Shown here piece by piece: positions 1,899-12,186 of a DNA stretch of 64,000 nucleotides. Origin of the DNA: Gammaproteobacteria bacterium (lineage in GTDB: Bacteria > Pseudomonadota > Gammaproteobacteria > SZUA-229); the NCBI GenBank assembly GCA_026195895.1, contig JAPHRO010000019.1:1-64000 (forward strand), in the 5' to 3' direction. The stretch's first letter is position 1. Each line of letters opens with the position of its first letter. The position numbers and the translations under genes were made by a program. The notes under the pieces are model-generated. The model was not told where the DNA came from, did no database searches, and saw only the letters and a program-made list of their open reading frames with translations.

Positions 1899-3095
1899 TT
1901 ATTCAGTTTTCCTAAGCAGTTGCCTGATGCTTCGAATCGCCTGTCGAGTTCGATGTTCGTTTTCGATTAAACTGAATCGAACATGATCATCACCGTATTC
2001 TCCAAAACCGATACCCGGTGATACTGCTACTTTCGCTTCTTTAAGCAATAATTTTGAAAACTCCAGCGAGCCCAGCTCTCGATATTGCTCGGGAATTTTT
2101 GCCCAGACAAACATGGTTGCTTTCGGTGGTTCCACTATCCAGCCTGCATCATTTAAACCGTTACACAGGACATCTCTTCGATTCTGGTACATTTGCCGGA
2201 TTTCTTCGACGCAATCCTGAGGCCCTTCAAGTGCAGCTATAGCCGCTATCTGAATCGGCGTAAACATACCGTAGTCCAGATACGACTTCATTCTTGCCAG
2301 CGCCGCGACCAGGGCAGAATTACCACACATAAAACCCACTCGCCAACCCGGCATATTATAGGTCTTCGACAAGGAATAAAACTCTACCGCAACATCTTTT
2401 GCCCCTTTCACCTGTAAAATGGATGGTGGTTTATAACCATCAAATACAATTCCGGCGTAGGCTATATCGTGGATAACCCAGATTTCGTGTTCCTTTGCTA
2501 TCTGAATAACTTTTTCAAAAAAATCCAGTTCCACGCATTGCGCTGTCGGATTACCCGGAAAGTTAAGTACCAGCATTTTAGGCTTTGGCCAGGTATCTTT
2601 TATTGCCTTTTCAAGCTCTTCGAAGAAATCAACATCGGTCGTCATTGGTACATGGCGTATGTCAGCACCTGCAATGACGAAGCCATAGGGATGTATTGGA
2701 TAAGCCGGATTAGGCACCAGCACAGCATCACCAGGACCAACCGTTGCAAGCGCCAGATGGGCAAGCCCTTCTTTTGAACCAATTGTCACAATGGATTCAG
2801 TTTCAGGATCCAGAGCGACATCATAAGTACGTTGGTACCAGTCACATATCGCTTTTCTTAACCGCGGTATCCCCTTCGACATGGAATATCGATGAGTATC
2901 GCCTCTTTGCGCGGCTTCCGTTAATTTATCGACGATATGTTTCGGCGTGGGCTGATCGGGGTTGCCCATACCAAAATCAATAATATCTTCACCCCGGGTA
3001 CGCGCATCCGCCTTCAACTGGTTTACTATATTAAAAACATAAGGTGGCAATCGTTTAATTCTATGAAATTCGTCTTGCAATTCGAAGATTTCCAA
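1899..3095 (-). CDS. alaC: Alanine transaminase (AlaC/YfdZ-type aminotransferase)
   Basis: This is a PLP-dependent class I/II aminotransferase that probably makes alanine from pyruvate and glutamate. The 398-residue protein opens with a family-typical segment containing [13 protein letters not shown]. It carries NFPGNPTAQ near residue 180 (PLP and substrate contacts), DIAYAGI near 215 and the PLP Schiff-base Lys244 in [12 protein letters not shown]. The reading frame begins at TTG (3093-3095). No in-frame ATG lies nearby that would keep the conserved N-terminus, so TTG is taken as the start. No clear Shine-Dalgarno sequence is visible. The enzyme was long annotated as a possible succinyldiaminopimelate transaminase (DapC), and that role cannot be excluded, since dapE is elsewhere in the window. 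Confidence 0.9.
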
Positions 3096-3115
3096 ATGTA
3101 AATAACAAAGCGGGA

Positions 3116-3144
3116 AAACTACTGGTGAAACGCAGAACTGTCAA
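3116..3144 (-). promoter_or_regulatory. Predicted sigma-70 promoter for alaC-hom
   Basis: Read on the minus strand, a perfect -35 box TTGACA (plus-strand 3139-3144) is followed after exactly 17 bases by TAGTTT (3116-3121) as the -10. The expected start would lie only 10-15 bases upstream of the TTG start of alaC, giving a very short leader. The -35 and spacing are strong and the -10 is mediocre. Confidence 0.5.
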
Positions 3145-3172
3145 CGTTATTAGAAAAATAATCAGACAGGGT

Positions 3173-3178
3173 TATAAT
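3173..3178 (+). promoter_or_regulatory. Possible -10 box (TATAAT) upstream of the Mth938-domain gene
   Basis: A consensus TATAAT lies 34 bases before the ATG at 3212. No convincing -35 box is present at the right distance. The best hexamer is TTAGAA at 3149-3154, 18 bases upstream. It would be divergent from the alaC promoter. Confidence 0.35.
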
Positions 3179-3211
3179 TTACAATTCTTTGAGTGAATAA
3201 CCGATATCCCC

Positions 3212-3580
3212 ATGAAATTTAGCGAAGAACAATCCGCTGGCAGCAATGTCATTCGAGCTTACCAGCATGATCAAATTAATATTAACGGCGCCCTTTTTAG
3301 TCAAAGCCTGGTACTGAATGATCGCCAGATAATCAAAGACTGGCCGCTGACCGATATCAATCAACTAACAGCGGAGCATCTGGCTCCGATACTGGCGATG
3401 AAACCGGAGGTTATTTTAATTGGTACGGGTCAAAAATTAACCTTCCCACCGGCTAGCAGCTATGCTTCAGTCATACACCAGGGCATTGGAATAGAATTCA
3501 TGGATTCGGGTGCGGCCTGTAGGACATTTAATGTACTGGTATCTGAAAATCGCACAGTTGTGGCGGGAATCATTCTCTAA
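3212..3580 (+). CDS. Mth938-like domain protein (DUF498/NDUFAF3 family)
   Basis: A 122-residue protein made of one Mth938-like domain, the fold shared with the mitochondrial complex I assembly factor NDUFAF3 and bacterial Xcc1710-type proteins. Typical features are the EVILIGTGQKLTFP segment near residues 68-82, GIGIEFMDSGAACRTFNVL near 93-112 and the closing AGIIL. In bacteria the biochemical role is unknown. The gene stands alone, divergent from alaC and convergent with rpoS. There is no strong Shine-Dalgarno before the ATG, but this start matches the family length. Confidence 0.85.
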   Translation: MKFSEEQSAGSNVIRAYQHDQININGALFSQSLVLNDRQIIKDWPLTDINQLTAEHLAPILAMKPEVILIGTGQKLTFPPASSYASVIHQGIGIEFMDSGAACRTFNVLVSENRTVVAGIIL

Positions 3581-8212: not shown

Positions 8213-8758
8213 ATGGCAGATTCTGACGAGCAAAAAAATAAGCATAATGATTATGACCTGTTCAGACAGGCCATGTCGGATGTTACGCCAATCCAGCAGA
8301 ACAAGGTGTCTTTTAAAAAGAAACCCGGCCCGATAAAAAAACGCCCAGCGGAAAAACGACAATCCATTACAGACACCCTAAGCGATGACTTTATTCCTGA
8401 ATGCAATGAATACCTTGAATTCATGCGGCCAGGCATTCAGAAAACCATGCTGAAACAATTGCGCAACGGCAAATTACCGATTGAAGATCACCTGGATTTA
8501 CACGGCTATACACGCGATATGGCCAGAAAAACCTTATTAGAGTTTATTCATCATTCACAACATCAGGGATACAGGGTAGTTTGCCTGGTGCATGGTAAAG
8601 GATATAACTCTGATGACGGCCGGCCGGTGCTCAAGGCCATGGTCAATAAATGGTTACAAAACATTGACCAGGTGCTTGCTTTTACCAGTGCACAGCCTGG
8701 AGATGGGGGAACCGGTGCGGTATATGTACTCATAAAACGCGCCGTAAATGAAGCTTAA
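8213..8758 (+). CDS. Smr-domain protein (MutS2/SmrA-type endonuclease domain)
   Basis: A stand-alone Smr protein of 181 residues. The Smr domain occupies the C-terminal half: LDLHG near residue 97, VHGKG near 129 and PGDGGTGAVYVLIKR near 161-175, all of which match nicking-endonuclease Smr domains (SmrA/SmrB). In Escherichia coli SmrB cleaves mRNA at collided ribosomes. Whether this protein does so is unknown. The N-terminal 70 residues are basic and lysine/proline rich, typical of this group. The open frame extends to a TTG at 8147, but the ATG at 8213 gives a start typical of the family (MADSDEQK). The gene overlaps the convergent TPR lipoprotein gene by four bases at its stop. Confidence 0.88.
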   Translation: MADSDEQKNKHNDYDLFRQAMSDVTPIQQNKVSFKKKPGPIKKRPAEKRQSITDTLSDDFIPECNEYLEFMRPGIQKTMLKQLRNGKLPIEDHLDLHGYTRDMARKTLLEFIHHSQHQGYRVVCLVHGKGYNSDDGRPVLKAMVNKWLQNIDQVLAFTSAQPGDGGTGAVYVLIKRAVNEA

Positions 8759-9714
8759 ATCCCGGGTACTGGCATCACATACCACAGGTTTTTGTTTTTT
8801 TCGGTTATTACCGATTTCAAATGATCGACTTTTTTCTTGTTAACCGTTTTATCAAGCTTTAGATATAACCCTGATAACACATCCAGTATTTCTAGCACGG
8901 TAGATTTATCTTTAATTTTAAAACTGGCCAGTAAAGCATTTTCATAGTCATCGGCTGCACCATGCCAGTCCTGTTTTTTCAATTTAATTGCACCCAGCGC
9001 CTGCAGTGCAGAAGATACTCCTTTTGGATTTGCCTGCTGTCGATACAGTTCCAGCGCCTGCATTAACCATCGCTCACTGTCAGCATATTCATTGTTCAGG
9101 CTCGCTAGCTCTGCCTGAAATCGCAACCAGCGAGCGCGATAGCCAGGATCGTTCTTATCAATAGCCTGATAAAACCTGTCCATCCATTTTTTTTGCTCAT
9201 CACCCAGACCAAAAGCCACACGTACACGATTCAATATAACGGCAATATAAATAGCTGCGTCACGATTTTTGACAGCATTCATGTCCGACAGATAAGGCTC
9301 AAGATATGCAAGTGCTGACGCATAATTTTTCAATTGAATGGCCATCGATGAGCTCATAATATCGGCGAGTATCGTCAACTCACTGAGCTTATTGTCATCA
9401 ATTATTTGTCGGGCCAGCTTCAGGTTTTTATCTGCTTCATCATACTCACCCAATGCAATAGCTAGTTTTGCCAGATTTAATCGGCAACGAGCAATACCCG
9501 CCACATAATTGAAACCCTGATATTCATATAATGCCTTGGTGAATTGCGCCCTGGCTGACAGATATTCGTAATGCTGATAATACTCAACACCACTGGCCAT
9601 ATAGGATTCGGCACGTTCTAACAAATAGGGATTTTCTTTTTTATCAGGCGCCGATACACAGGCAGTTAATATCAGCATTAAATATACAAACAACAGGTAT
9701 TTTAACTTAATCAT
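8755..9714 (-). CDS. TPR-repeat lipoprotein of the MCE operon
   Basis: The 319-residue protein begins with a lipoprotein signal (hydrophobic core, then LTAC with the acylated Cys near residue 19). From about residue 30 to 285 it is built of TPR-like helical pairs, for example SGVEYYQHYEYLSARAQFTKALYEY, LAKLAIALGEYDEADKNLKLA and ALGAIKLKKQDWHGAADDYENAL. No catalytic motif is visible. Its start overlaps the end of the MCE gene by eight bases, so it is almost certainly the last member of that operon. The likely role is a periplasm-facing scaffold or an outer-membrane anchor for the lipid-transport complex. That role is inference from context, since E. coli Mla uses the OmpC-bound lipoprotein MlaA and soluble MlaC instead. 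Confidence 0.75.
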   Translation of the reverse strand: MIKLKYLLFVYLMLILTACVSAPDKKENPYLLERAESYMASGVEYYQHYEYLSARAQFTKALYEYQGFNYVAGIARCRLNLAKLAIALGEYDEADKNLKLARQIIDDNKLSELTILADIMSSSMAIQLKNYASALAYLEPYLSDMNAVKNRDAAIYIAVILNRVRVAFGLGDEQKKWMDRFYQAIDKNDPGYRARWLRFQAELASLNNEYADSERWLMQALELYRQQANPKGVSSALQALGAIKLKKQDWHGAADDYENALLASFKIKDKSTVLEILDVLSGLYLKLDKTVNKKKVDHLKSVITEKNKNLWYVMPVPGI

Positions 9715-10621
9715 TAGCAGGCATAGGATCGGTTATGAGTTGTTTATTATCTGAGCCAGACATGGCCGATGAAATTGGCCAGACGCGTTGTGTGGCCTTG
9801 ATAGTTTCGTCAGTGTCATCTATCACAGCATTTATACTTTCTAACATTAGCGGTATTTTTTGCACGTCGGTGTTTAAACTTTCAACCATTTGATTTATCT
9901 GCACCGTCGTTGCATGTAAATTTTCAATACCCTGCTTGAAATCCTGACTTGATTTATCATCATAAATCAGGGTACCAACAGGGCCCGCGCCGGTTTTTAT
10001 ATGTTCTGACATATCTTTTATATTCGTTGCAAGTTGTTGAAAAGCACTGATAGTATCCGCAATTTTTTTGGGTTCTACGGCTGCTACGACATTTGAAATA
10101 TCTTCTATGACAGAATTGACGGTTTGAATCGTCTCAGTTGCTTCAGCTATCACATCCTCCACCGACCTGGATTCCTGAACAGCCAGAGTAACACCTTCGT
10201 CTATCATTGCCAGATCTGGCGAACCTGCCGTTATCGATATTATTGATTTACCAATAATGGTTGCATTTAAACTACTGACTTTAATACGCGAATCGGTACG
10301 TAATAATTTATGATATCGCTTAACGATATTCATCGTCAGCAAAATATCGTTTTTATCTGTAATATCGATAGCTGATACATGTCCAACTTCAAAGCCTGAT
10401 ATCTGGACGATAGTCTCTTTACTAAGCCCCTCGGCTGAACTGAGCTTGCCATAAATAACGAAATATTCTTCAAATATATTCTGACTTTTTATTTGTGCAA
10501 ATAACATTGCCAGCAATAAGCCTACTGTTACCAGAATAAAAGCGCCGACTAATTGCTCCTGAAACCCATAACTGGTTCGATGAATATAGTGGGTAGCTTT
10601 TGTTTGTTCGTTATTTGGCAT
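9707..10621 (-). CDS. MCE-domain protein (MlaD family)
   Basis: An inner-membrane-anchored, periplasmic lipid-binding subunit. One transmembrane helix lies near residues 22-43 (VGAFILVTVGLLLAMLFAQI). A single MCE domain follows (about 45-125), with GLSKETIVQISGFEVGHVSAI and a DSRIKVSSLNATIIGKSIISITAG core. The rest (about 130-290) is predicted helical and carries the VEDVIAEATETIQTVN-like pattern common in MCE proteins with a needle-like or coiled tail. At 304 residues it is about twice the length of E. coli MlaD (183), so it resembles longer MCE proteins. It lies 14 bases after the ATPase gene and overlaps the TPR lipoprotein gene by eight bases. Confidence 0.88.
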   Translation of the reverse strand: MPNNEQTKATHYIHRTSYGFQEQLVGAFILVTVGLLLAMLFAQIKSQNIFEEYFVIYGKLSSAEGLSKETIVQISGFEVGHVSAIDITDKNDILLTMNIVKRYHKLLRTDSRIKVSSLNATIIGKSIISITAGSPDLAMIDEGVTLAVQESRSVEDVIAEATETIQTVNSVIEDISNVVAAVEPKKIADTISAFQQLATNIKDMSEHIKTGAGPVGTLIYDDKSSQDFKQGIENLHATTVQINQMVESLNTDVQKIPLMLESINAVIDDTDETIKATQRVWPISSAMSGSDNKQLITDPMPAND

Positions 10622-10635
10622 AAAAAAACATCAAC

Positions 10636-11379
10636 TTAATTCATATAATAGTTCTTCAGAAAATCTGATACGTCAGGGTCTGGAGATTGTTGCAGTTCAT
10701 TTTCGTTATTAAATACCAGCATATTCGATGGCGAAACAAAAACAATTGTATCCGAATAGCGGCAGGCAAATTCAATATTTCGAGTATTTAATACCACAGC
10801 CAGATTATTTTTCTGCATTTGATTTTCTAAAAACGTTCTGACCATCTGCTTTGCCTGGACACCTATGCGTGAAAATAAATTATCGATAAAAATCACTTTC
10901 GGTTCCAGCATCATCGCTCTGACCAACAGGGCCTGGTAGCGTTTTTCCGCATCCACATAAGCGGGTAGCTGCTGTAAACTTTGGAAATCCGTATAGCCGA
11001 TCTGGGATAACAGGCCCAGCGCCCTTTCTTCCAGTTGCGATGTACTTCCCTGCTTATGATATAAAGCGGGTGTAACAATATTGTCCATTATGTTCAGTAC
11101 CGACAATAATGCCGTACTGGTGCCTACATAGGCTATTTTTTTTCTACTATCCAGCCAGCCCTGACGTCCGATTGAATTGATATTCTTACCCATCAATTCC
11201 AGTTCTCCACCCTCGAAGTCTTCCAGACCTGCGAGTATTTTCAACCAGATAGATTTGTCAGCGGATTCCGGCCCGATGATACTGGTCATCGTGCCAGGCA
11301 TAATGGCAATATCAAACTGACTATATATATTCTCATTGCACTGGCGAATACCTTTGGCTTGTATCAGGATATTTTCCAC
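10636..11379 (-). CDS. MlaF-like ABC ATPase with degenerate catalytic motifs
   Basis: The 247-residue protein aligns along its whole length with ABC nucleotide-binding domains of MCE systems, yet nearly all catalytic motifs are altered. Walker A reads GPESADKS (36-43), with Asp41 in place of the invariant Gly before Lys. The Q-loop Gln is replaced by Thr87. The LSGGQ signature position reads YVDAE (141-145). Walker B reads VIFIDN with Asn167 in place of the catalytic Glu. The H-loop position falls on Arg200 (NTRNI) instead of His. The frame is intact, and spacing to both neighbours is tight (14 and 18 bases), so this is not simple gene decay. It may bind nucleotide without hydrolysing it, pair with a second active ATPase encoded elsewhere, or have become structural. 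Confidence 0.8.
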   Translation of the reverse strand: MENILIQAKGIRQCNENIYSQFDIAIMPGTMTSIIGPESADKSIWLKILAGLEDFEGGELELMGKNINSIGRQGWLDSRKKIAYVGTSTALLSVLNIMDNIVTPALYHKQGSTSQLEERALGLLSQIGYTDFQSLQQLPAYVDAEKRYQALLVRAMMLEPKVIFIDNLFSRIGVQAKQMVRTFLENQMQKNNLAVVLNTRNIEFACRYSDTIVFVSPSNMLVFNNENELQQSPDPDVSDFLKNYYMN

Positions 11380-11397: not shown

Positions 11398-12186
11398 TTA
11401 GATCAGCAACAGGGCAAAAATACCATCAATCAAAAACAGCATAACCAGCGTATTTACAATTGCTTTTTGTGTTTGTTGTGGCACTTCAGTCGGCGATTTA
11501 TCGACTTTAAGCCCGTGATAACAGGCGGTAGCACCAATAATTAAGCCGAATAAAATATTCTTGGCAATAAATATTGGCAACACAATGGGATCTAAACCCT
11601 GTGCCAGTTGAGTCAGGTAATTAAAGTGTGTTTTTGAAAGCAGCAGGCCACTAAGCAATATTCCGGACACCATCGAGATCAAGGTAAAAAACACGGCAAC
11701 CGCCAGTTGCGAGATGGTTGCACCCAATATACGTGGTGCAATCATATATTCATTAATATCTATACCCATGTATTCCAGTGCTTCAATCTCTTTATGTAAC
11801 TTCATATTTCCTATATCAACTGCTATAGCTGAGCCAGTTCGGCTAATCAGAGTAAACGCTGACATCATGGGGCCGATTTCAAGTCCCACCAGATAAACGA
11901 GAATAGTCACTGTATCGCCGACGGAGTCAAATAAGGCAATTAATCGAAAAGTAAATACAAAACCAATTATTAATGCCAGTATGGTAATAACTGGCATGGC
12001 ATCTATTCCGGTAAAGATAATCTGGCTGACAAGCGGTCGATAACTGTCGCGGTTGAGTAATCGAATCTTTTTGAACCAGTCGCGAAGCGCAAAGACAGTA
12101 AACGTAGTGAGATTGAGCAAATATGACAAGCGCTTTAAAATAAAATAACCAGGCCATCCTAGAATTGTATTAATAGTGTTTGTCAT
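11398..12186 (-). CDS. MlaE-family ABC transporter permease
   Basis: An inner-membrane permease of the MCE transport system, 262 residues. The MlaE hallmark is clear: RTGSAIAVDIGNMKLHKEIEALEYMGI (about residues 114-140), which corresponds to the coupling-helix region RxGxAxAxELGxMxxxxQIDALxxMG of MlaE. It is followed by four to five hydrophobic segments. A hydrophilic N-terminal segment with FKKIRLLNRDSYRPLV precedes the first long membrane helix, as in MlaE. It is the first gene of the permease/ATPase/MCE/TPR operon, 86 bases downstream of dnaE on the same strand. Confidence 0.9.
   Translation of the reverse strand: MTNTINTILGWPGYFILKRLSYLLNLTTFTVFALRDWFKKIRLLNRDSYRPLVSQIIFTGIDAMPVITILALIIGFVFTFRLIALFDSVGDTVTILVYLVGLEIGPMMSAFTLISRTGSAIAVDIGNMKLHKEIEALEYMGIDINEYMIAPRILGATISQLAVAVFFTLISMVSGILLSGLLLSKTHFNYLTQLAQGLDPIVLPIFIAKNILFGLIIGATACYHGLKVDKSPTEVPQQTQKAIVNTLVMLFLIDGIFALLLI

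Follow-up and report, generated by a model that had tools for sequence, protein, structure and literature searches.

A four-gene MCE operon with a degenerate ABC gene

The window, the whole stretch of 64,000 nucleotides analyzed here, contains an operon of four minus-strand genes encoding, in order, a permease, an ABC protein, an MCE protein and a TPR lipoprotein; the next gene upstream is dnaE-like. The first gene (11398–12186, minus strand) encodes an MlaE-like permease of 262 residues (Pfam MlaE, 157.5 bits) that has kept its coupling-helix region, MKLHKEIEALEYMG. The ABC gene (10636–11379, minus strand), an uninterrupted open reading frame for 247 residues, starts 18 nt after the end of the permease gene and lies upstream of the MCE gene, 14 nt from it, as the preliminary description had said in calling it intact and closely spaced with its partners. 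The MCE gene (9707–10621, minus strand) encodes an MlaD-like protein of 304 residues (Pfam MlaD, 45.3 bits) with one N-terminal hydrophobic helix, a single MCE domain and a long C-terminal part. Residues 10–22 of this protein (THYIHRxSY..QE), ahead of the hydrophobic helix, are nearly invariant in the family; they are presumably cytoplasmic and could touch the ABC protein or the permease. The last gene (8755–9714, minus strand), which shares 8 nt with the end of the MCE gene, encodes a lipoprotein with TPR matches and a lipobox-like LTAC motif. A like gene lies downstream in most relatives read, and its product would form the outer-membrane end of the system.

As in MlaFEDB of E. coli, A. baumannii and P. 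aeruginosa, an MlaE-type permease and an MCE protein share the operon with an ABC protein, and the permease, the ABC fold and the MCE protein are homologous between the two systems. The window operon differs in having no MlaC and no MlaB/STAS gene or domain (no STAS match in the four operon proteins, and a dnaE-like upstream neighbor), and in its additional TPR lipoprotein. The Brucella Mpc system, an MlaEF-like pair with an MCE needle and a PqiC-like lipoprotein that has been proposed to act as a bridge (PMC12436622), shares the permease, the ABC protein, an MCE protein with a long C-terminal part and an outer-membrane lipoprotein. However, MpcF is by description a well conserved ATPase, MpcE carries a STAS domain, and the Mpc lipoprotein is not of the TPR type. 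PqiABC and LetAB (YebST) are MCE bridges without an ATPase domain, but they combine PqiA/LetA membrane proteins with tunnels of several MCE domains and have neither an MlaE permease nor a nucleotide-binding domain (NBD), whereas the window operon encodes a single MlaD domain together with an MlaE permease.

The ABC protein is recognizable as an NBD by its Pfam ABC_tran match (PF00005; 40.3 bits against a cut-off of 25), and it falls far below the curated cut-off of the MlaF equivalog NF008809 (65.3 bits against 441). AlphaFold predicted a complete NBD (pLDDT 94.2, pTM 0.91), for which the best Foldseek match, and the nearest solved structure, was E. coli MlaF (TM 0.88, 21% identity), in agreement with the fold-level pattern noticed earlier. 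In alignments, the Walker A position (residues 36–44, GPESADKSI; 11248–11274 on the minus strand, computed from residue numbers) reads GPESADKS, with Asp41 replacing the last and Ser39 the middle Gly. Thr87 occupies the position of the Q-loop Gln, Arg200 that of the H-loop His, and Walker B ends in Asp-Asn, without the catalytic Glu; Lys42, Ser43 and the Walker B Asp are retained. All of these replacements had been listed in the preliminary description except Ser39, which the alignments added. Its report that the LSGGQ signature is lost also stands, with one correction: the LSGGQ/M columns hold VDAEK, so that the YVDAE originally given lies one residue too far left, which leaves the conclusion the same. 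The window protein, an MlaF-like ABC subunit, has neither a functional Walker A nor a functional signature, and the Q-loop Gln, the catalytic Glu and the H-loop His are all missing; by these five motifs it does not qualify as a catalytically competent ABC ATPase. E. coli MlaF has and needs all of them, and a K47R exchange in its Walker A rendered the ATPase activity of MlaFEB undetectable and abolished complementation (PMC5016091). As this one exchange suffices to abolish the E. coli activity, a subunit damaged in all five motifs is not expected to drive transport.

Motif loss among relatives and genomic context

Used as a query, the ABC protein retrieved nine orthologues in the family, 31–37% identical, all degenerate and all in a matching operon. 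Wide searches were keyed on the MCE protein rather than the ABC protein; they found the operon in 16 of 54 family genomes and in 13 further genomes among 369 sampled from the class, and a wider MCE profile added operons in the class and phylum. Altogether, about 60 genomes, distributed over a bacterial phylum, have a degenerate ABC gene in a like operon. All ABC proteins readable beside the retrieved MCE genes are degenerate, and such a protein adjoins the MCE gene in each operon read to its upstream side. MCE matches of about 93 bits or more have a degenerate ABC neighbor and those of about 91 bits or less a canonical one, a boundary noted after the fact and not preset, so the MCE clade and the state of the ABC protein coincide. 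A search for orthologues with canonical motifs, the case that the preliminary description had named as telling against it, found none. Since the same operon with a degenerate ABC gene recurs in the family, class and phylum, we rejected an isolated sequencing error as the source of the motif loss in the window. A contig scan with short ABC peptides returned distant ABC proteins at 22–25% identity only and no orthologue, and a plasmid search returned other MlaE permeases at about 30% identity only. We found no report of an MCE clade with degenerate ABC proteins in the literature searched, which included few subscription papers; a literature search on Pseudomonas PA3211–PA3214 yielded nothing useful.

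Among 54 related ABC proteins tallied, none has the Q-loop Gln, the signature GG or a complete motif set, and a full Walker A is present in 10. Nine more relatives beyond these also lack the Q-loop Gln and the GG (0 of 63 in total). An LSGGL string at one locus (L153) was dismissed as a signature, as it is a chance match ahead of the P-loop. In canonical systems, the motif set is complete in 29 of 32 cases, the remainder being two proteins cut by contig ends and one without the Gln. A minority of the degenerate proteins (L040, L079, L048) retain the Walker A Lys, the Walker B Glu and the H-loop His, so that some relatives may still bind ATP. The P-loop Lys is gone in several relatives, and the entire Walker A is gone in one lineage of the same phylum (family f207), in which neither of two members tested gave a Pfam match. 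Even L083, a relative without a P-loop, was modeled with an NBD-like fold (pLDDT 84.8; TM of about 0.7 to several NBDs).

The loci of some relatives have features of their own. In L088 and L091 (180–720, minus strand), from the Walker A-less lineage, the gene for the TPR lipoprotein is followed immediately by one for an RsbW-like kinase. In some MCE proteins (L035, L033, L047), the helical part is repeated internally, which would make for a longer periplasmic needle. L164 (G763) is rearranged, with the genes for the pseudo-ABC, MCE and TPR proteins following dnaB; its permease, at first thought lost, is present about 4 kb downstream. In G425, G453, G434 and G437 (L146, L147, L149, L155, L158, L159, L161, L163), about 5 kb separate the degenerate operon from a canonical MlaE/MlaF operon.

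MlaE loci and MCE loci number three each in the window genome, and both other MlaE loci have canonical ATPases. RsbU/RsbW-like genes flank its canonical MCE operon L002 (2601–3628, minus strand). In 11 other genomes scanned for MlaE permeases, the canonical-type loci with an ABC gene in reach all have intact motifs, alongside the degenerate operon. Such company would allow the degenerate subunit to pair in trans with an active ATPase such as the MlaF of another operon, in the manner of heterodimeric ABC transporters with one degenerate site; joint action with another active ATPase was among the options of the preliminary description. Canonical MlaF/MlaE operons are present in most of these genomes, and ABC exporters in which one site has degenerated are a familiar type (PMC7756269). 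TM287/288 and CFTR, for instance, have also lost the signature and the catalytic Glu in a site kept for structural reasons. However, these transporters each keep one active site, whereas the window operon encodes only one ABC gene and thus supplies a degenerate NBD only. In addition, the window genome yielded no orphan MlaF-like protein, its only two others each lying beside their own permease. The only MlaE permease of a further genome (G262, 98% complete) is accompanied by a degenerate ABC protein, which argues against an ATPase lent by another operon. We therefore regard a partner in trans as quite unlikely.

Selection on the ABC protein and its permease

The degenerate ABC protein is the fastest-evolving product of the operon; within the family, its median pairwise identity is 37.6%, compared to 65.4% for its own permease, whereas canonical ABC proteins and permeases diverge to a similar degree (76.9% and 78.7%). 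Its dN/dS is about 0.13–0.19 for pairs with measurable dS, dS being near saturation in most, as compared to 0.02–0.05 for the canonical ABC gene. Selection is relaxed relative to canonical systems yet still purifying, and together with the clade-wide conservation of the operon this upholds the earlier suggestion that the protein is maintained. Rapid evolution might also be expected of a gene that has lost its function and is decaying toward loss, and two relatives could be read in this way: L121, reduced to a stub of about 154 residues, and L043 (G387), whose ABC gene is divided over two reading frames close to a short near-duplicate (about 2746–3330 and 2411–3214, minus strand), by a lesion or an assembly error. 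Against decay, which we consider highly improbable, the frame is open in 14 of 14 family members read, dN/dS is well below 1, an ABC-type protein keeps its place next to the MCE gene, and the segment described below is kept even in the stub and in P-loop-less forms.

Selection has acted very differently on two parts of the protein. The ATP-site columns have a mean pairwise identity of 0.27 in the clade, compared to 0.30 for columns drawn at random from that alignment; in canonical MlaF from mostly the same genomes, the same columns reach 0.98. The segment following the Q-loop (residues 90–108, ALLSVLNIMDNIVTPALYH; 11056–11112 on the minus strand, from residue numbers), with its N...P...H pattern, is the top conserved block (rank 1 of 225), and it survives where Pfam misses the ABC domain. 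We take this segment to be the coupling-helix contact, as expected from general ABC architecture. In the permease, the end of TM2 together with the coupling helix ranks 4 of 233 blocks, but the helix core alone only 29 of 245. These patterns bear on the idea that the protein binds nucleotide without hydrolyzing it, as a regulatory sensor or a gate of the permease. Lys42, Ser43 and the Walker B Asp, and the full Walker A in 10 of 54 relatives, would fit such a role; but Asp41 sits in the phosphate loop, relatives have dispensed with the P-loop Lys or the whole Walker A, and the ATP-site columns are conserved no more than random ones. A nucleotide sensor therefore appears unlikely to us.

In a permease tree, a single branch (SH-aLRT 98) parts degenerate from canonical operons; the tree is quick and unrooted, with some long branches and limited canonical sampling. 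Mapped onto it, loss of Walker A requires 7 changes, or at least 4 when only well-supported branches are counted. The simplest history would be that the Q-loop Gln and the signature were lost early and that the other motifs eroded independently later.

A probable structural role in a proposed ATP-independent MCE bridge

Release of the ATP site combined with retention of the presumed permease-contact segment favors a structural subunit of an ATP-independent system, two of the readings put forward in the preliminary description. Several findings on related systems led us to this proposal: besides the effect of K47R, MlaE contacts MlaF through its coupling helix (PMC7790496), in the absence of ATP it stands open toward the MlaD channel, MlaD-to-MlaC transfer has been observed without ATP hydrolysis (both PMC10212509), and PqiA and LetA show that MCE systems can do without an ATPase domain (PMC12436622). 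We suggest that the protein is probably a pseudo-ATPase, an MlaF-type NBD that has lost ATP hydrolysis and now serves as a structural subunit on the cytoplasmic side of an MCE lipid-transport complex, docking on the permease and propping it. Most likely as a homodimer, it would bind to the coupling helices of the dimeric MlaE-like permease and hold the permease open toward the MCE ring, while the MCE protein and the TPR lipoprotein would bridge to the outer membrane. By homology, the substrate would be lipid, which would flow passively down its gradient, not powered by ATP and probably from the inner to the outer membrane. A broader proposal, to which we give about even weight, is that one ancient, phylum-wide clade of MCE bridges gave up ATP. 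Its members would have kept the ABC frame while the NBD prop eroded repeatedly and independently, and would pass phospholipid without ATP, probably from the inner to the outer membrane.

Both the power source and the direction of phospholipid movement in MCE systems are disputed. A natural MlaE/MCE clade without ATPase motifs separates the NBD as an engine from the NBD as a scaffold, and offers a direct way to test ATP-independent MCE transport. As the ABC proteins of several members escape Pfam, annotation has probably overlooked systems of this kind or mislabeled them as ATPases. Our observations suggest a class of lipid bridges that retain their motor solely as a structural piece.
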